A stretch of 34,252 bases of DNA from IMG/VR virus record IMGVR_UViG_3300020053_000593, positions 1 to 34,252 of that record. The stretch is one strand, 5' to 3'. The notes below the pieces were generated by a model, which was not told the origin of the DNA, ran no database searches, and saw only the letters and a program-made list of their open reading frames with translations. Position 1 is the first letter of the stretch. Every line of letters begins with the position of its first letter. Both the position numbers and the translations under genes were made by a program. The stretch is from a virus. Shown here in pieces: positions 3,176 through 32,124 of this stretch.

Positions 3176-3326
3176 AGCAATGATTGAGCAATTGCGAGAA
3201 GAGTTTGCTATGGCACATCTGAATAACTCAAGGGTTATGGAAATTATTGATGCGTTATGGAAAGAGAATCAAGAACTCAGACGAATTGCAACCATGAAGT
3301 TTAAAGACATCGACGATGAGCAATAA
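3165..3326 (+). CDS. Small helical protein before terL
   Basis: This 53-codon gene has a strong ribosome site (GAGGGA at 3154-3159) 5 bases before the ATG. The product begins MELKAMIEQLREEF and is a single charged, probably coiled-coil, helix with a Met-rich middle and a C-terminal KDIDDEQ. No family is recognised. It overlaps DUF3310 by 11 bases and terL by 11 bases. Its place directly before terL suggests a packaging or regulatory accessory role, but this is a guess. Confidence 0.6.
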   Translation: MELKAMIEQLREEFAMAHLNNSRVMEIIDALWKENQELRRIATMKFKDIDDEQ

Positions 3327-4878
3327 AAAAGAACGTAGTAAAAAAGAGTTAGCGGGTCCAGGCATTGATCTGGATTTTAGTAGCGCACGGACAACTTATA
3401 AATTTCTCCAAAGTAATGCATTTGTTCGCGGACTTATGGGGCCTGTTGGATCTGGTAAATCCTATGCGTGTGCTGCTGAGATCATGATGAGAGCTGTCAG
3501 ACAGAAACCATCACCGATTGATGGGATTCGCTATACTCGCTTTGTAATTGTCAGGAACTCGTACCCAGAACTTAAGACGACAACCATTAAGACATGGCAA
3601 GAGTTATTTCCTGAAAACACTTTTGGTCCGATGCTATACACACCTCCAATCACTCATCACATTCGCCTCCCGTCCCGCGGTGATGCTGCGGGTATAGACT
3701 GTGAAGTGATTTTCCTGGCATTGGACCAACCTAAAGATGTACGTAAATTATTGTCACTTGAACTTACAGGAGCATGGGTCAATGAAGCACGAGAACTTCC
3801 AAAAGCTGTTATTGATGGTCTTACTCATCGGGTTGGTCGCTATCCTACACAGCGGGATGGTGGCCCGACTTGGCATGGAGTGTGGATGGATACTAACCCC
3901 ATGGACGATGACCATTGGTGGTTTCGTTTAAGCCAAAAAGAGCCGATCACAGGTAAATATGCTTGGGACTTCTTTCATCAGCCAGGCGGTGTCATCGAAG
4001 TGAGTCCTGAAAATTTACCTGAGAATCCAGAAGCGAATGATCATATTTTTTCAGGGGGTCGTTGGTGGACCATTAATCCTAAAGCAGAAAACGTATCGAA
4101 CTTACCTGGCGGATATTATGCTCAAATGTTGGGTGGTAAGAACTTAGATTGGATTCGTTGTTATGCTGAAGGTAAGTTTACTTACGTGCAAGAAGGTAAG
4201 CCTGTATGGCCTGAGTATGATGACAACATGATGAGTAGTTCTGAGGTTGATTATGATCCCACTCTACCTATTCATATTGGTCTTGACTTTGGTTTGACAC
4301 CAGCCGCTGCAATTGGGCAACGACTCAATAATGGACGTTGGGTAATCTTACATGAAATTGTGACAGAAGATATGGGTCTTGAAAGATTTGGCACACAACT
4401 TTTAGCTGAAATAAATGCTAAATATCCTAAAGCACAAATACTGGTATGGGGCGACCCAGCGGGTATGCAACGAGATGCGATCTATGAAGTCACTGCATTT
4501 GATTACTTACGTACCTTAGGCTTACGCGCACAACCTACACCATCAAACAATTTCCAAGTCAGACGTGAAGCAGCAGCTGCTCCGATGCAACGATTGATTG
4601 CTGGAAAGCCTGGACTTGTATTACACACTTCTTGCAAAAGATTACGTAAATCACTCGCTGGAGGCTATCATTTTAAACGAGTGAGTGTTGGTGCTGGACA
4701 AGAAAGATTTAGAGACAGTCCAAATAAGAATGAACATTCTCACATTGGCGATGCATTTGGTTATCTGCTTTTAGGTGGCGGAGAACATAAGCGGATGACC
4801 AAGTCCGCCTTATCACAGAATACATTAATTTCACAAACTGTAGTAAATAGTGACTTCGATGTTTTTAACTCACGTTGA
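3316..4878 (+). CDS. terL: Terminase large subunit (packaging ATPase-nuclease)
   Basis: This 520-residue protein is the motor that drives DNA into the empty head. The N-terminal ATPase has a Walker A motif GPVGSGKS at 42-49 and a Walker B-like strand ending GAWVNEA with E157. The C-terminal RNase H-like nuclease has the expected acidic residues in GLDFG (D324), WGDPAG (D380) and HIGDAFGY (D479). Length and order are normal for podovirus large terminases. It follows the probable small subunit after three small genes and precedes head genes, a standard order. The start overlaps the preceding small gene by 11 bases. Confidence 0.97.
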   Translation: MSNKKERSKKELAGPGIDLDFSSARTTYKFLQSNAFVRGLMGPVGSGKSYACAAEIMMRAVRQKPSPIDGIRYTRFVIVRNSYPELKTTTIKTWQELFPENTFGPMLYTPPITHHIRLPSRGDAAGIDCEVIFLALDQPKDVRKLLSLELTGAWVNEARELPKAVIDGLTHRVGRYPTQRDGGPTWHGVWMDTNPMDDDHWWFRLSQKEPITGKYAWDFFHQPGGVIEVSPENLPENPEANDHIFSGGRWWTINPKAENVSNLPGGYYAQMLGGKNLDWIRCYAEGKFTYVQEGKPVWPEYDDNMMSSSEVDYDPTLPIHIGLDFGLTPAAAIGQRLNNGRWVILHEIVTEDMGLERFGTQLLAEINAKYPKAQILVWGDPAGMQRDAIYEVTAFDYLRTLGLRAQPTPSNNFQVRREAAAAPMQRLIAGKPGLVLHTSCKRLRKSLAGGYHFKRVSVGAGQERFRDSPNKNEHSHIGDAFGYLLLGGGEHKRMTKSALSQNTLISQTVVNSDFDVFNSR

Positions 4879-24770: not shown

Positions 24771-25886
24771 ATGTATCAAACAAGCATTGATAGTTTTCAA
24801 CAAAACAGTTATGTACATTTAAAAAGCTTTTTAGACGAACAAAACTGTGCAGAATTAACACAAGCATTAAAAGATTTAGTTGTAAACGGACGTACAGTAA
24901 AAGATATACAATGCCCAAAGTCAGAAGCTGTACATGGAACACAGACATTTGACCAGTTGTTAGTAGACTTATTACCACACTTTGAAAAACATTGTGGTAA
25001 AAGATTATATCCAACTTATTCATACGCAAGATTATATGCTCCTGGTGACGAACTTGTAAAGCATAAAGACAGACCAGCCTGTGAAATATCAGCAACCATT
25101 ACACTAGGTTTTGAAGGTGACGTATGGTCTATCTACATGGAAGGTAACAAAGTAGATATGCAAGTAGGTGATGCCGTTTTGTATCGTGGCATGGAAGTTG
25201 AGCATTGGCGAGAAAAGTATACTGAAGGTCAATGGCAAGCACAAGTATTCTTACATTATGTAGATGCTGATGGACCACATGCTGAATGGAAGTATGATAA
25301 ACGTCAGTCATTAGGTGTCTCTAAAAATACACTTACTGAACGAACATTAACTAATTGTGCTGTATTTGATAATCATTTGTCTCATGACTTTTGCAATAAC
25401 TTAATTAACACATACTCACAAGACAGTATAAATAAAGAACCACCATACATTGGTAACAATACTGGAGAAATAGATAAAACAATTAGAGATGTTAAAAGAG
25501 TTATACTGCCACAAAATGTAGGCATTGGTGCCACACTAACATCAACAGGATTAAATGCAAACCAGTATTGGTGGCAATATCATATAACTCATTCTAATCA
25601 AACTGAGTTATTAATATATAAACCAGAAGGACATTACACTCAACATGTAGATACGTTTCATAGTCATAGTGAAGAGACAAGAAAGCTCACATGCTTGGCA
25701 TTTTTGAATGATGATTATGAAGGTGGTAAGTTTTTTATTAACGCTGATGGTAGAGTATTTTATCCACCACAAAGCAAAGGAACTGTGTTAGTATTTCCTA
25801 GTTATATGATACATGGTGTTGAGCCAGTAACAACAGGAACTCGATACAGTGCCGTAACATGGTTAGTAGGACCATACTTTAAATAG
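24771..25886 (+). CDS. Double-domain 2OG-Fe(II) dioxygenase
   Basis: This 371-residue protein contains two complete prolyl-hydroxylase-like domains. Domain 1 (about 1-170) has the iron triad H98, D100 (HKD) and H145 (EHWRE), then AQVFLHYVD. Domain 2 (about 190-371) has H292, D294 (HVD), H348 (YMIHGVEPV) and R358, the usual 2-oxoglutarate-binding Arg ten residues on. In domain 1 no Arg or Lys stands at that spacing; this holds for other HWRE-type members as far as I recall. Such enzymes hydroxylate proteins or other substrates using 2-oxoglutarate and oxygen. The gene lies between the fibre and lysis genes, and modification of fibre or host surface is possible. Substrate is unknown. Confidence 0.88.
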   Translation: MYQTSIDSFQQNSYVHLKSFLDEQNCAELTQALKDLVVNGRTVKDIQCPKSEAVHGTQTFDQLLVDLLPHFEKHCGKRLYPTYSYARLYAPGDELVKHKDRPACEISATITLGFEGDVWSIYMEGNKVDMQVGDAVLYRGMEVEHWREKYTEGQWQAQVFLHYVDADGPHAEWKYDKRQSLGVSKNTLTERTLTNCAVFDNHLSHDFCNNLINTYSQDSINKEPPYIGNNTGEIDKTIRDVKRVILPQNVGIGATLTSTGLNANQYWWQYHITHSNQTELLIYKPEGHYTQHVDTFHSHSEETRKLTCLAFLNDDYEGGKFFINADGRVFYPPQSKGTVLVFPSYMIHGVEPVTTGTRYSAVTWLVGPYFK

Positions 25887-27427: not shown

Positions 27428-28132
27428 ATGAGTTACAAGTCGGTATTGGTTATATCAGATTTGCATATACCCTATCATCATCCTGATGCATTTGAATTCT
27501 TAACTCAACTCAAGAAGAAATATAAACCAGATCTCGTTGTCAATATTGGAGATGAGATCGATCAACACTCAATCAGTTTTCATAATCATCACCCAGACTT
27601 GAAGTCACCTGGCGATGAACTTAGAGTTACTAGACAATATGTAAAAGAGTTAGAGAAAATTTTTCCTGAAATGACCTTGGTGCATTCAAACCATTCATCA
27701 CTTATCTATCGTCGAGCTGTAGCCCATGGCTTGAGTTTGGAGTATCTAAAAAGCTACAATGAATTCTTACAAGTAGGGCCTGGATGGAAATGGGTGGATG
27801 ATTTCACTGTTACTTTATCAGATGGTCAGCGCTGTTTCTTTACGCATGGGATGTCAGCTGACGTCATGAAGGTGGCCCAGCAATATGGAATGAATACTGT
27901 CCAGGGGCATTATCATTCTAAGTTTAAGATTGAATACTATTCTAATCCTGACAAGCTTGTCTGGGGTATGCAAACAGGATGTCTCATCAATCAAAAAGAA
28001 TTAGCATTTGAATATGCTAAGAATTTTAAATCCAGATTCATCATCGGTTGTGGTATGATTATAGAGGGGCAACCTAAACTCATGCCAATGATACTTAAGG
28101 ATGGTGGACGATGGACGAAAACGATAGTGTAA
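27428..28132 (+). CDS. Calcineurin-like metallophosphoesterase
   Basis: This 234-residue protein has the whole set of metallophosphoesterase motifs: SDLHIPYHH (D11, H13), GDEID (D42), SNHS (N88, H89, where many relatives have GNHD), THGMS (H140) and GHYH (H161, H163). Such enzymes use two metals to cut phosphomonoesters or phosphodiesters, including nucleotides and nucleic acids. The substrate is not evident. It follows a short AT-rich gap (27391-27427) with TATATAATAG that may hold a promoter. It overlaps the next gene by 22 bases. Confidence 0.9.
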   Translation: MSYKSVLVISDLHIPYHHPDAFEFLTQLKKKYKPDLVVNIGDEIDQHSISFHNHHPDLKSPGDELRVTRQYVKELEKIFPEMTLVHSNHSSLIYRRAVAHGLSLEYLKSYNEFLQVGPGWKWVDDFTVTLSDGQRCFFTHGMSADVMKVAQQYGMNTVQGHYHSKFKIEYYSNPDKLVWGMQTGCLINQKELAFEYAKNFKSRFIIGCGMIIEGQPKLMPMILKDGGRWTKTIV

Positions 28133-28335: not shown

Positions 28336-28436
28336 AAACGACCCACACAATCGTTCTCTGTTGCACGATCTCATGTCAGCCTAGGGTAACCTATCAGAAA
28401 ATAACGATCGTTTAACTACGCTCTTTCTGCATATCT
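28336..28436. other. Gap between converging transcription units
   Basis: Rightward and leftward units meet in this 101-base gap. It holds short inverted repeats ATCGT/ACGAT (28350-28369), TAGG/CCTA (28382-28393) and a 10-bp palindrome AACGATCGTT (28403-28412). None has a T run, so a classic terminator is not evident. Confidence 0.4.
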
Positions 28437-28925
28437 TTATAACGATTTAGGCATATTCCATGTAGATTCTAGTGCAATAATGTCTTTAAAGGGTACCAAT
28501 GTCAGTAAATCTTGGCGACCTTCTCGAGTATACAGCTGATACACACCTTTTCCTTTGCTGTAATTTTTTTCCTTGACTTTCTCATTGACTAATTCACGTA
28601 GCTCTTCTCTGTTTGCAATGACCCATGCATCTTCTCGTTCAAACACAATGTAATCTGCAAGGCCTTTAATCCATCCAGGCTTGCCATGTACATTCTTACT
28701 TTCAATCCATGTATATTTTTGTATGGTATTGGTATCATGTCTGTTGTATCGCTTCATGCCTTTGACATCAAACTTCAATGGCTCAGTATCAATCCATCCA
28801 CATACACCTTGAACATCCCAATGCTCATACATGTCTTGTTCTTTGGTGGCCCAGACCACATCATTTAATTCAGCATCAGCAAATGCTTGTTCTACTTTCT
28901 TACCTTCAGTTAAAAAATCATTCAT
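28437..28925 (-). CDS. Possible PD-(D/E)XK-like phage nuclease
   Basis: This 162-residue protein contains EHWDVQGV (D37), KFDVKGMKRYNR (D53, K55) and WIESKNVHGKPGWIKG (73-88), then DYIVFERED and a C-terminal GRQDLLTLVPFKDI. I know this pattern from conserved phage proteins with ADYIAFE and KDVLTLV blocks. The spacing of D37 and D53-x-K55 would suit a PD-(D/E)XK nuclease, but it has not been proven. AAGGA lies 5 bases before the start. It is the last gene of the leftward unit. Confidence 0.6.
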   Translation of the reverse strand: MNDFLTEGKKVEQAFADAELNDVVWATKEQDMYEHWDVQGVCGWIDTEPLKFDVKGMKRYNRHDTNTIQKYTWIESKNVHGKPGWIKGLADYIVFEREDAWVIANREELRELVNEKVKEKNYSKGKGVYQLYTREGRQDLLTLVPFKDIIALESTWNMPKSL

Positions 28926-28946
28926 ACTTTTCCTTATCCTTTATTC

Positions 28947-28987
28947 ATGTATTTGTCATACCTGTATTACATGTATATCTGCCATAC
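28947..28987 (+). repeat. Two imperfect direct repeats upstream of pqqA
   Basis: ATGTATTTGTCATAC (28947-28961) is repeated as ATGTATATCTGCCATAC (28971-28987), 24 bases downstream. The second copy touches the -10 box of the pqqA promoter, with a TACATGTA palindrome at 28969-28976. They could be sites for a regulator of pqqA. Confidence 0.45.
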
Positions 28988-28993
28988 TATAAT
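28988..28993 (+). promoter_or_regulatory. TATAAT -10 box for pqqA
   Basis: A perfect TATAAT precedes pqqA, with the expected transcription start near 29000 and a 16-base leader. No good -35 box is seen at 16-18 bases upstream, so the promoter may be activator-dependent or use the direct repeats at 28947-28987. Confidence 0.55.
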
Positions 28994-29015
28994 CTCAATT
29001 AACTAGGAGACTATT

Positions 29016-29087
29016 ATGTGGACTAAACCAGCAGCAACTGAAATGCGTTTCGGTTTCGAAGTTACAATGTACGTATGTAACAAATAA
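29016..29087 (+). CDS. pqqA: PqqA, PQQ precursor peptide
   Basis: The 23-codon gene begins MWTKPAATEM and has the core RFGFEVTMY, ending VCNK. This is the pattern of PqqA, the ribosomal peptide from which the cofactor pyrroloquinoline quinone is made: MW.KPA start, R.G.EVT.Y and 23-24 residues in all. E15 and Y19, the Glu and Tyr that PqqE links and that become the PQQ skeleton, are both present at the right spacing. AGGAGA stands 5 bases before the ATG, a TATAAT box is upstream and an intrinsic terminator follows at once. Neighbouring genes run the other way. No pqqB-E genes are in the window, so host enzymes must process it. The gene is likely host-derived. Confidence 0.93.
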   Translation: MWTKPAATEMRFGFEVTMYVCNK

Positions 29088-29112
29088 AGAAAGGGGCTTG
29101 CGCCCCTTCTTT
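29086..29112. terminator. Bidirectional terminator after pqqA and the ParB-like gene
   Basis: GGGGC (29093-29097) pairs with GCCCC (29102-29106) around TTGC, and the stem continues as AAAGAA (29086-29091) with TTCTTT (29107-29112), leaving one bulged A at 29092. It directly follows the pqqA stop on the plus strand and the ParB-like stop on the minus strand. In the leftward direction the RNA has a long U-rich tail, so it should work both ways. Confidence 0.85.
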
Positions 29113-29113
29113 G

Positions 29114-29836
29114 TTAAAAGAATCCTACCTTCTGTGCTTTAGACACTTTGAAGTTATAAATATCTCTGATTGCATTCCTGAAAGTATCTTCCCCTCCACT
29201 CTGCGGCAACATATGAGATTGTACTTTTAACTTCTGCATCATTCGACTATGATTGTAGTCTGGGTGATGGAATAGTTTGATCATACAATTTAGTAGGTGA
29301 CTCTTCTTATAGTTTGGATAGTATTGACCAATCTGATCGAGCTGTCTTGCATGTTCTAAAGCTTGATTGTAATTCTTGATCTTGAATGTACCAAATTTAA
29401 ACTGCCTACCTAATTCACCTGATCGGGTTGGACTACCACCGAGCAATGCAATACATGCACTGTAGTTGTATCCAGTCTCTTGCATGAACTGTTTAAACTT
29501 AATGTATTCTGGATGGCCTAGCGCACAGAATGAATGTAGTCTATTGCCATTGTTCCAGTTAGCCATGTTCTCATTCAGTCTGCGCACCTCATCTAATGCT
29601 AACTTATTGATCTTGATAAAGTGTACATCAAAGCCTAGAAAGTTTGCCGCTTCAAAGCGATGTTGACCATCAATGATCTCATGCTTCTCATTGACAATAA
29701 TCGGCACAGGGATGTACCTTTCTTTCATGGACTTAATCAGTCTCTTTAAATTACTTTTATTGATGTTACGATTCCCGTTAATGTATTTAAACATACCGTA
29801 ATCATTGGTTTTATAAACTTGATTTACTTGTTTCAT
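29114..29836 (-). CDS. ParB/sulfiredoxin-fold phage protein
   Basis: This 240-residue protein has a ParB-like N-terminal domain: INKSNLKRLIKSMKERY, a VPIIVNEKHEIIDGQHRFEA strand-turn-helix with the DGQHR motif at 56-60, and then EVRRLNENMANW. ParB domains can bind CTP or act as nucleases; stand-alone phage members have unclear roles, including DNA binding or nicking. The remaining C-terminal part is helical with RSGELGRQFKFGTFKI. AAGGAAA lies about 8 bases before the ATG. It ends at the bidirectional terminator. Confidence 0.85.
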   Translation of the reverse strand: MKQVNQVYKTNDYGMFKYINGNRNINKSNLKRLIKSMKERYIPVPIIVNEKHEIIDGQHRFEAANFLGFDVHFIKINKLALDEVRRLNENMANWNNGNRLHSFCALGHPEYIKFKQFMQETGYNYSACIALLGGSPTRSGELGRQFKFGTFKIKNYNQALEHARQLDQIGQYYPNYKKSHLLNCMIKLFHHPDYNHSRMMQKLKVQSHMLPQSGGEDTFRNAIRDIYNFKVSKAQKVGFF

Positions 29837-30514: not shown

Positions 30515-30575
30515 CCTCAATCGGTTCCTTGCCAGGTAGATTGAGGCTTAAAACTTTTTTACTTCAAGCACCTTT
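30515..30575 (-). other. dnaX-like programmed -1 frameshift signal
   Basis: On the minus strand this site shows, in order, AAAGGTG (30575-30569, Shine-Dalgarno-like), 8 bases, the heptamer A AAA AAG (30560-30554) placed in the ERF frame exactly as X XXY YYZ, 7 bases with the ERF stop, and an 8-bp perfect stem CCTCAATC/GATTGAGG (30546-30539 with 30522-30515) whose 16-base loop can pair further (CCT/AGG). This is the same arrangement as the E. coli dnaX frameshift site. Confidence 0.7.
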
Positions 30576-31012
30576 GATGGTGGTAGTTTTTCAGCCATAG
30601 ATTTTGTTTCTCTGTATGGTTGTTCTGCTACTTCAGCATCATCATCTAACTTCTCTTCAGGTGGTACCCCACAAGCAGTCAGCAAGCTGTATCGACGCGC
30701 ATAAGTCAAAGCTGATCCATACTTTTGCGGGGACTGTTGTTCACTAGGAACATACAATAAACCACCTGATATTTGTTCACCTGTCTCATGCATAAAGATA
30801 GTCTCTACTTTGACACCATTCTCACATTCGTGTGTCTTTTGTATTAATGCAATACCATGTTTGTTTAAGGCTGGTTTAACCGCAGCAACACAAGCATCGA
30901 GTCTTGCATAATTGCTTCTAAAGTGTGGATTTTTGCCTTCTAATCCAGTCTTTTCAAACTCTTTTTGTGCTTCGACAAAAGCCTTAGCAATCCCCAAAGT
31001 TTTCTCTGTCAT
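30548..31012 (-). CDS. erf: ERF-family single-strand annealing protein
   Basis: This 154-residue protein resembles ERF-type recombinases: GKNPHFRSNYARLDACVAAV, KPALNKHGIALIQ, then the signature QKYGSALTYARRYSLLTACG (about 96-115) and an acidic DDD. ERF proteins anneal complementary single strands, working with an exonuclease; here a YqaJ-like gene lies just upstream in the same unit. The ATG at 31012 has GGAG 6 bases upstream and is preferred over a TTG 12 bases earlier. The frame-0 product ends EVKKF; a -1 shift at the final Lys codons would give a form of 234 residues. Confidence 0.9.
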   Translation of the reverse strand: MTEKTLGIAKAFVEAQKEFEKTGLEGKNPHFRSNYARLDACVAAVKPALNKHGIALIQKTHECENGVKVETIFMHETGEQISGGLLYVPSEQQSPQKYGSALTYARRYSLLTACGVPPEEKLDDDAEVAEQPYRETKSMAEKLPPSKVLEVKKF

Positions 31013-31169
31013 AATTTTCTCCAAAGTAAGTTAATATTAATTGGTTACGTCTACGTTTATCAACGATTCGACGCTTGATGATCTGTAAAAACATCTCATC
31101 ATCTTTTTTATCTTGCTCATATTCCTCTTGACGTACTACCGTTTCATAGAGGTACTGTAAATCATCCAT
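30984..31169 (-). CDS. Small charged protein between exonuclease and ERF
   Basis: This 61-residue protein begins MDDLQYLYETVVRQEEYEQD and has a basic second half (IKRRIVDKRRRNQLIL). It is helical and highly charged. AAGGAG stands 8 bases before the start, within the end of the exonuclease gene; its stop lies inside the ERF gene by 29 bases. Its place suggests a helper of the recombination pair, but it matches no known family I recall. Confidence 0.6.
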   Translation of the reverse strand: MDDLQYLYETVVRQEEYEQDKKDDEMFLQIIKRRIVDKRRRNQLILTYFGENYDRENFGDC

Positions 31170-32124
31170 TGTCTACACTCCTTATGCGTAATTTAGATTG
31201 GCGCACAGTTCGCGCTGGCTTGGCTGGAACGATCTTTTCAGGTGTCGCTTTATAATTGATCATTGGCCATGAGATTTTATATTGACCTGAAATGGCATAC
31301 ATATTGTCGCGCATACGATCCATGATTCTAAGCTCATGATTTTGTATTTGCTCTTCGATGTCTGCATGGATCTGACGTAACTCTATGATTTTATTCACAT
31401 CTTCCTCTACATCATCGAGTACAATCGTTTCCTTTTCAGCTTGGTCAAAGATCGATGCTGCTTCCTTGGTCGTTTCCATGTCATACCATTCCACCTCATC
31501 GTTGGTTTTGTATTTGTCCAGGCGTCGTTGAAAATCAATGACAGCTTCATGAATCTTAGCAATCACTTCCTCGTCGCGTTGGTATACAAAAGTTTTTAGA
31601 GTTGTGCCTTTATATAAGACACACACTGCACCCCACTTTGCACCTGTGATGTCCATCTGCATTTGCAATTGCAATGGCCCACGATACAGTGGGAGTTCTG
31701 TTGCTGACTCGACTTCATGCGCAGTGAGTTTGGCTTCGACTACGCCCATGCCATCCAGGCGTATCTCGTCCCCATTGACACACACAATGCCTTTCTCAAT
31801 GTCTGTCATGATGATTCGATCATCACCTGTGACAGTGCCATCAAGGCTGCATGCAATTGGTATTTTCTTATGAAAATATGGTTGCGTGTGTGTGGTCTTT
31901 GGATTGCCAAGCCCTAGCCTAGCGCATGATTCATTCAAGATGGTAGTTTCAAGCTTATTGCCCCAATCCATAGATTCATTGCTAGTGAATGGTGGATCGA
32001 TGCCTGAGATAACATCCATCTTTTGTTTTAGTAGTTCGTTGACCGTCATATACTTTGATGCACCCATTAATACAGGTACTTCAGAAGCGGATAACTGGTC
32101 GTTCGGTGTGACTTTACCGACCAT
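31162..32124 (-). CDS. YqaJ-like phage recombination exonuclease
   Basis: This 320-residue protein has the lambda-exonuclease/YqaJ fold motifs: SASEVPVLMGASKYMT near the start, SMDWGNKLET with E59, CSLDGTV with D95, VVEAKLT with E130 and K132, and a QLQMQMDITGAKW block (152-164). These form the metal site of 5'-3' double-strand exonucleases that produce single-strand tails. The C-terminal third is charged and helical (EQIQNHELRIMDRM) and ends in a basic tail. Together with the ERF protein it forms a two-part recombination system, useful for end joining or concatemer repair. AAAGGGA precedes the start. Confidence 0.9.
   Translation of the reverse strand: MVGKVTPNDQLSASEVPVLMGASKYMTVNELLKQKMDVISGIDPPFTSNESMDWGNKLETTILNESCARLGLGNPKTTHTQPYFHKKIPIACSLDGTVTGDDRIIMTDIEKGIVCVNGDEIRLDGMGVVEAKLTAHEVESATELPLYRGPLQLQMQMDITGAKWGAVCVLYKGTTLKTFVYQRDEEVIAKIHEAVIDFQRRLDKYKTNDEVEWYDMETTKEAASIFDQAEKETIVLDDVEEDVNKIIELRQIHADIEEQIQNHELRIMDRMRDNMYAISGQYKISWPMINYKATPEKIVPAKPARTVRQSKLRIRSVDNG

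Follow-up and report, generated by a model that had tools for sequence, protein, structure and literature searches.

A 23-residue PQQ precursor peptide gene in an MEP301-type phage genome and its recurrence among methylophages

The pqqA locus and its setting in the genome

The window, by which we mean the whole 34,252-base IMG/VR virus record analysed here, carries on its plus strand, at positions 29016 to 29087, a 23-amino-acid open reading frame whose peptide, MWTKPAATEMRFGFEVTMYVCNK, is PqqA, the precursor peptide of PQQ. The translation is exactly the one given in a preliminary description of this DNA, which had recognised a PqqA signature and proposed a profile search as a check; that search, run here, placed the peptide far above both curated cut-offs, with matches to NCBIfam TIGR02107 (E = 5.8e-12, 45.1 bits, cut-off 20) and to Pfam PF08042 (E = 6.3e-11, 42.4 bits, cut-off 21.1). 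The two profiles rule out a chance open reading frame at this position, and a six-frame PqqA profile scan of the entire record returned the same interval as its single match at E ≤ 10 (E = 2.3e-11). Glu15 and Tyr19, the cross-link sites, are both in place with three residues between them. The peptide matches no family of PHROGs version 4 at E ≤ 0.001; among host peptides fetched by a core-motif pattern (matches listed) and by profile hits, its exact sequence is absent, and three of them lie one residue away.

Around this frame the elements of a small transcription unit can be read with differing confidence. A putative sigma70-like promoter (28966 to 28993, plus strand), proposed from a promoter scan and from comparison with relatives, consists of ATTACA at 28966 to 28971 and TATAAT at 28988 to 28993 with a 16-nt spacer, making 10 of 12 matches. 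Scanning 28400 to 29300 yielded two sites against 3.7 expected from shuffles, no excess over chance when the window is taken by itself; among MEP301-type relatives, a TATAAT-like hexamer lies 15 to 54 nt 5' of the ATG in 22 of 24 distinct upstream sequences, compared with 9 of 24 for a control stretch lying farther upstream, these sequences being related and the counts not independent. The position of the hexamer varies, at 22, 27 or 28 nt 5' of the ATG among the nearer MEP301-type relatives. A ribosome-binding site, AGGAGA (29005 to 29010, plus strand), stands 5 nt 5' of the ATG, and AGGAG or a similar sequence precedes the pqqA start in the relatives inspected. Downstream, a GC hairpin at 29091 to 29108 scores as terminator-like in both directions, and would serve both pqqA and the convergent gene. 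A hairpin is found in 22 of 23 distinct downstream sequences of MEP301-type loci, in 14 different sequences and with MEP301 itself as the exception, a tally made without a shuffle control on related sequences whose counts are not independent. More broadly, among the matches listed, a hairpin with a T-rich tail lies within 70 bases 3' of pqqA in 85 of 183 viral copies (10% in shuffles), and a terminator-like hairpin follows 126 of 159 fetched host copies (18% in shuffles), the control in both cases being a dinucleotide shuffle written for this analysis. Of the promoter, ribosome site and terminator that had been claimed for the gene, all three motifs are thus present; the hairpin is supported, and the promoter is plausible by its enrichment in relatives.

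Both flanking genes run on the minus strand. The upstream neighbour (28437 to 28925) encodes 162 amino acids with no Pfam match at E ≤ 1 and no PHROG match at E ≤ 0.001, and the convergent neighbour (29114 to 29836) encodes a ParB-like protein (phrog_12305, E = 5.4e-33). The earlier claim that pqqA runs against both neighbours therefore holds in the window, but it does not hold as a general rule: among the matches listed, the 164 viral loci with both neighbours callable divide into 58 in which pqqA runs against both, 62 in which it runs with both and 44 of mixed orientation.

Beyond these neighbours lie an Erf-like single-strand annealing protein (30548 to 31024, minus strand; phrog_2324, E = 1.6e-39), a YqaJ-type recombination nuclease (31162 to 32124, minus strand; PF09588, E = 2.9e-7) and, outside the variable interval in which pqqA sits and beyond its far boundary, a calcineurin-like phosphoesterase (27428 to 28132, plus strand; PF00149, E = 2e-7), which keeps its place in the gene order in the MEP301-type loci compared. 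The order phosphoesterase, small gene, pqqA interval, Erf annealing protein, YqaJ nuclease is common to the window and to Methylophilales phage MEP301, to which 25% of the first 20 kb matches at 76% identity, and by these sequence comparisons we assign the window to the MEP301 type. MEP301 (MW452941) likewise carries pqqA, at 3316 to 3384, between recombination genes and phosphoesterase and against both neighbours; it differs in its peptide, MWTSPKATEMRFGFEVTMYVMNK, and its gene is absent from the record's annotation. As MEP301 is reported to infect methylotrophs of the OM43 group (PMC8024684), the shared gene order suggests a Methylophilales host for the window too, which accords with the methylotrophic host proposed earlier. 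The MEP301 host strain is given as FZCC2181 in record MW452941 (L002) and as HTCC2181 in the paper (PMC8024684).

Three further observations concern the record itself. Its ends share no exact repeat of 12 bases or more, so the record may be incomplete, and a run of G at the extreme left end (positions 1 to 25, TTCCGGGGGGGGCGGGGGG) is possibly an assembly or sequencing artefact. The C-terminal part of a bipartite protein encoded at 24771 to 25886 (plus strand) is a 2OG-Fe(II) oxygenase (PF13640), and the N-terminal half of the protein draws two conflicting matches, one to a PHROG named ferrochelatase and a weak one to Pfam PhyH.

Distribution of pqqA among phages

A search of phage genomes had also been proposed in the preliminary description, and tblastn with the window peptide across 50,697 phage records (E up to 10) matched 12, ten of which we count as genuine phages: Venkman, P19250A, MEP301, MEP401, MEP402, four Melnitz records and the uncultured podovirus ctXG6705. 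Nine have hosts in the Methylophilales or Methylophilaceae, the tenth phage being uncultured. In none is the gene called pqqA: five records have no feature at the position, and the other five are annotated with a 'hypothetical protein' there, on the opposite strand in both of those inspected. The two other matching records, both named 'Acinetobacter phage MD-2021a', were set aside as bacterial DNA; we take CAKLQF020000010 (L365) to be bacterial and mislabelled because pqqB, pqqC, pqqD and ppk surround its pqqA, and the second, CAKLQH020000055, was excluded by name alone. Pelagiphage HTVC008M, described as a near relative of Melnitz (PMC10580990), is among the 50,697 records and was not among the matches to the 23-residue query, which misses strongly diverged PqqA. 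Nor should ten be read as a count of every cultured methylophage, since MEP431-434, Venkman EXVC038S and HIMB624-A, among others, are named in taxonomy and absent from the matches, perhaps lying outside the collection.

DNA searches with the stretches surrounding pqqA in Venkman (4.1 kb) and MEP401 (3.1 kb) found that the other methylophages share only the pqqA segment, MEP402, the sister of MEP401, aside; the shared segment starts 13 bases before the ATG with Venkman and ctXG6705 and 0 to 3 bases before it with MEP401. The Melnitz peptide begins MKW, and Melnitz stands outside the loci and flank groups described below.

In IMG/VR, pattern scans found at least 236 viral loci, at least 195 of which hold a PqqA open reading frame by regular expression, a lower bound drawn from a non-random sample. 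When the 195 loci listed, five named phages and the window were grouped by two shared proteins within 4 kb, they formed 27 flank groups, 13 with a single member, in which short contigs may split one lineage and shared recombination genes merge Venkman, MEP301, P19250A and ctXG6705 into a single group. A phage gene (major head protein, terminase, clamp loader, primase or single-strand-binding protein) lies nearby in nine of nine groups sampled, a check made on nine proteins, one per group, out of 20 candidates. One locus from the bacterial genome collection, L325, is possibly a prophage, or else a phage binned there by mistake, because its phage neighbours are those of the MEP301/Venkman group.

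Used as bait, the YqaJ nuclease of the window drew 64 relatives, 36 of which extend at least 3 kb past YqaJ; pqqA is present in 26 of these 36 and absent from ten, and it is therefore dispensable in some phages and comes and goes. A PqqA profile search of ten MEP301-type whole records found the gene in one only, that of L459, and gave nine negatives, of which six belong to the ten pqqA-less loci (two of them about 34 kb long) and the remaining three are records in which the locus stops short. Among close relatives, pqqA is present or absent within an otherwise kept order of flanking modules, as is expected of a moron. The earlier reading of the locus as a stand-alone moron accordingly keeps its cassette and loses its singularity: pqqA is a widespread and recurrent methylophage gene, not a universal one, and the window is one instance of it. 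The pqqA-less loci are L425, L427, L429, L431, L432, L434, L436, L457, L465 and L466, and the order YqaJ, Erf, phosphoesterase, peptidase is kept in the seven of them that were compared, L431, L457 and L465 being left out; L459, close to these loci, has pqqA at another distance.

Selection on the peptide and the host's share of the pathway

Conservation of the two reactive residues was judged from searches unconditioned on them, scans that required E15/Y19 or used a regular expression holding them being left out. Glu15 and Tyr19 are kept in 77 of 78 places with TEMRFGF (80 loci listed), the exception, L344, being a chance match, and in all 35 MEP301-type loci found through YqaJ. Both residues are likewise kept in 91 of 92 places of the MWTKPA set, the 119 listed places of which comprise these 91, the frameshifted L098 as the exception, L092 cut by a contig end and 26 that look like chance; L098 is a viral copy that reads MWTKPAATEMRFGLTI and then stops. 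The ratio pN/pS is 0.15 over 189 distinct viral sequences among the matches listed, a value biased low by the search patterns, and again 0.15 over 23 distinct MEP301-type sequences (the YqaJ-found loci, the window and MEP301), to which the PqqA expression was still applied. Letter for letter, 91 of 195 viral peptides among the matches listed are identical to a fetched host peptide. The gene thus combines a close host homologue with purifying selection in phage, two marks of an auxiliary metabolic gene.

The remainder of the pathway appears to lie with the host. A PqqE profile found no match over the window record, and tblastn with the proteins encoded around pqqE in LSUCC0665 (OM43), PqqE and neighbours that we take from their position to be PqqC, PqqD and a PqqB fragment, gave nothing better than E 0.46, in agreement with the statement in the preliminary description that the phage has no pqqB to pqqE. 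To have pqqBCDE next to pqqA is common, though PqqA does not require it. In 19 of 19 small host genomes searched, PqqE exceeded the cut-off, and the dependence on host maturation enzymes that had been claimed is what these sequences point to. Thirty-six larger viral records (at least 20 kb), hand-picked for length and for carrying pqqA, each hold exactly one copy; in none of them did PqqE exceed the cut-off, one record giving a weak sub-threshold match. A PQQ-dependent alcohol dehydrogenase over the cut-off occurs in one, the record of L158, so these phages do not generally bring a PQQ-using enzyme. In that record (72,356 bases, G119) the dehydrogenase, a 628-amino-acid open frame, lies about 6 kb from pqqA, and a 669-amino-acid protein of phage family phrog_35576 is near the gene; a search of the record for a T4-type major head protein found none.

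Hosts are rich in the precursor gene. It occurs in 80 of 80 genomes of the family of LSUCC0665, at 1 to 12 copies each, and copies away from the pqq operon are usual there; G005, G035 and other genomes have scattered copies, up to 12. Methylophilaceae are described as carrying several copies of pqqA and typically one of each other pqq gene (PMC4109929). These chromosomal copies resemble the viral ones in their near-identical peptides and in the terminator-like hairpins that follow them; unlike the viral copies, they reside on a chromosome, in numbers of up to a dozen, with pqqE in the same cell.

Proposed role of phage-borne pqqA

We hold it probable, at roughly 0.72, that phage-borne pqqA supplies just the component that is consumed one-for-one per PQQ made and thereby sustains methanol oxidation. 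In the biosynthesis described by PMC10906245, PqqE acts together with PqqD to join a Glu and a Tyr of PqqA, and cleavage and oxidation of the peptide then give PQQ; because PqqA itself undergoes these steps, one peptide is spent per cofactor and the enzymes are reused. During infection the phage cassette would make this ribosomal precursor, host PqqD and PqqE would bind it and join Glu15 to Tyr19, and a host protease, PqqB and PqqC would complete PQQ. If the host chromosome is shut down or degraded in the infected cell, PqqA would run out first, and phage PqqA would keep PQQ available to the host's PQQ-dependent methanol dehydrogenases, so that energy and carbon from methanol could continue to flow until lysis. 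We infer on these grounds that the gene is expressed in infection, that its product is matured by host PqqD and PqqE, that host PqqA is depleted and that the phage benefits; PQQ or energy supply may accordingly rise in infection, as the preliminary description had supposed. The availability of PqqA is reported to be rate-determining in Methylovorus MP688 (Ge et al., as cited in PMC11317620), whereas pqqA is reported as nonessential for PQQ in M. extorquens AM1, in work in which orphan copies were not examined (Toyama and Lidstrom, cited in PMC11317620).

Phage-borne pqqA is itself already known. In the Lake Baikal phage population VP_266, PqqA was reported together with a methanol dehydrogenase and the same benefit was proposed (PMC7678222); that population is like the window in its phage-encoded PqqA and in its predicted Methylophilaceae host, and unlike it in being assigned to the T4 type and in encoding methanol dehydrogenase, the window being of MEP301 type and none of its tested proteins having been recognised as such an enzyme. 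As far as its text was available to us, PMC7678222 describes one phage population and not a wide occurrence, and pqqA also figures in the list of virus-encoded genes given by a 2026 reservoir study (PMC13188868). The term 'pqq' is absent from the main texts of the MEP301 paper (PMC8024684) and the MEP401/402 paper, was not found by text search in the Venkman paper and occurs in the Melnitz paper as a medium component only. In open-licence PubMed Central we found no report of a wide occurrence in methylophages. The gene is far more widespread than annotation and the literature found would indicate, and what is new here is this breadth, together with its invisibility to annotation.

Other explanations of the gene have to be set against the supply of a consumable precursor. 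The preliminary description had offered as an alternative that the phage peptide is a decoy that ties up PqqD and PqqE and blocks PQQ synthesis, and the rather tight binding of PqqA to PqqD reported in PMC10906245 (Kd 0.39 uM) means that an excess could in principle compete. We regard this as very improbable because so many viral peptides are host peptides and because the reactive Glu and Tyr, which one would expect an inhibitor to have lost or changed, are kept; a true substrate is, moreover, a poor blocker of its own product. It is unlikely, though less so, that the peptide serves some other purpose in the infected cell, such as other PQQ enzymes, lanthanide handling or redox protection. XoxF-type dehydrogenases use both a lanthanide and PQQ, which lends this idea some substance. 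In M. extorquens, moreover, the orphan copies of pqqA are reported to respond to which lanthanide source is given, and a part in lanthanide uptake was suggested (PMC11317620). The hosts of the named carriers, on the other hand, are methylotrophs, in which methanol dehydrogenase is the obvious user of PQQ.

To the idea that pqqA is passenger DNA, a small host gene captured often by chance and under no selection in the phage, we give hardly any weight. Capture should be easy because hosts have up to 12 copies, and both the related phages that lack pqqA and the single frameshifted copy, L098, are what such a passenger would leave behind. Against it, amino-acid change is strongly suppressed, as the pN/pS value indicates, terminator hairpins persist while their sequence changes, and pqqA occurs in several unrelated phage lineages. 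Equally little weight falls to a product that serves a survivor or a lysogen rather than the lytic burst, with which the recovery of MEP301 from seawater as a phage infectious for an OM43 strain (PMC8024684) sits somewhat uneasily.

Building on precursor supply, we put at slightly better than even odds a broader reading, namely that pqqA is a hidden near-core gene of Methylophilales phages, acquired separately by several lineages, that precursor supply limits methanol oxidation in infected cells, and that the gene went unseen because gene callers skip open reading frames so short. Were this true, pqqA would be to phages of methylotrophs what psbA is to cyanophages, and with its 23 codons it would rank with the smallest metabolic genes that phages carry. 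The two would be alike, by analogy only, in that the phage carries the fastest-consumed part of a host energy machine, and different in that psbA makes a protein subunit of that machine whereas pqqA makes a cofactor precursor. Time and again, phages that infect a major group of methanol consumers carry this one specific piece of host metabolism, the precursor that each PQQ uses up, and annotation overlooks the gene in ten of ten phage records. The pattern yields a testable idea, namely that phages bring in the parts that are spent rather than those that can be used again, for which phage-host pairs are in culture (such as those of MEP301, Venkman, Melnitz, MEP401/402 and P19250A); it also suggests an under-count of very short metabolic genes in phages. 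If the near-core reading is true, a virus-driven supply of PQQ would shape C1 carbon turnover.
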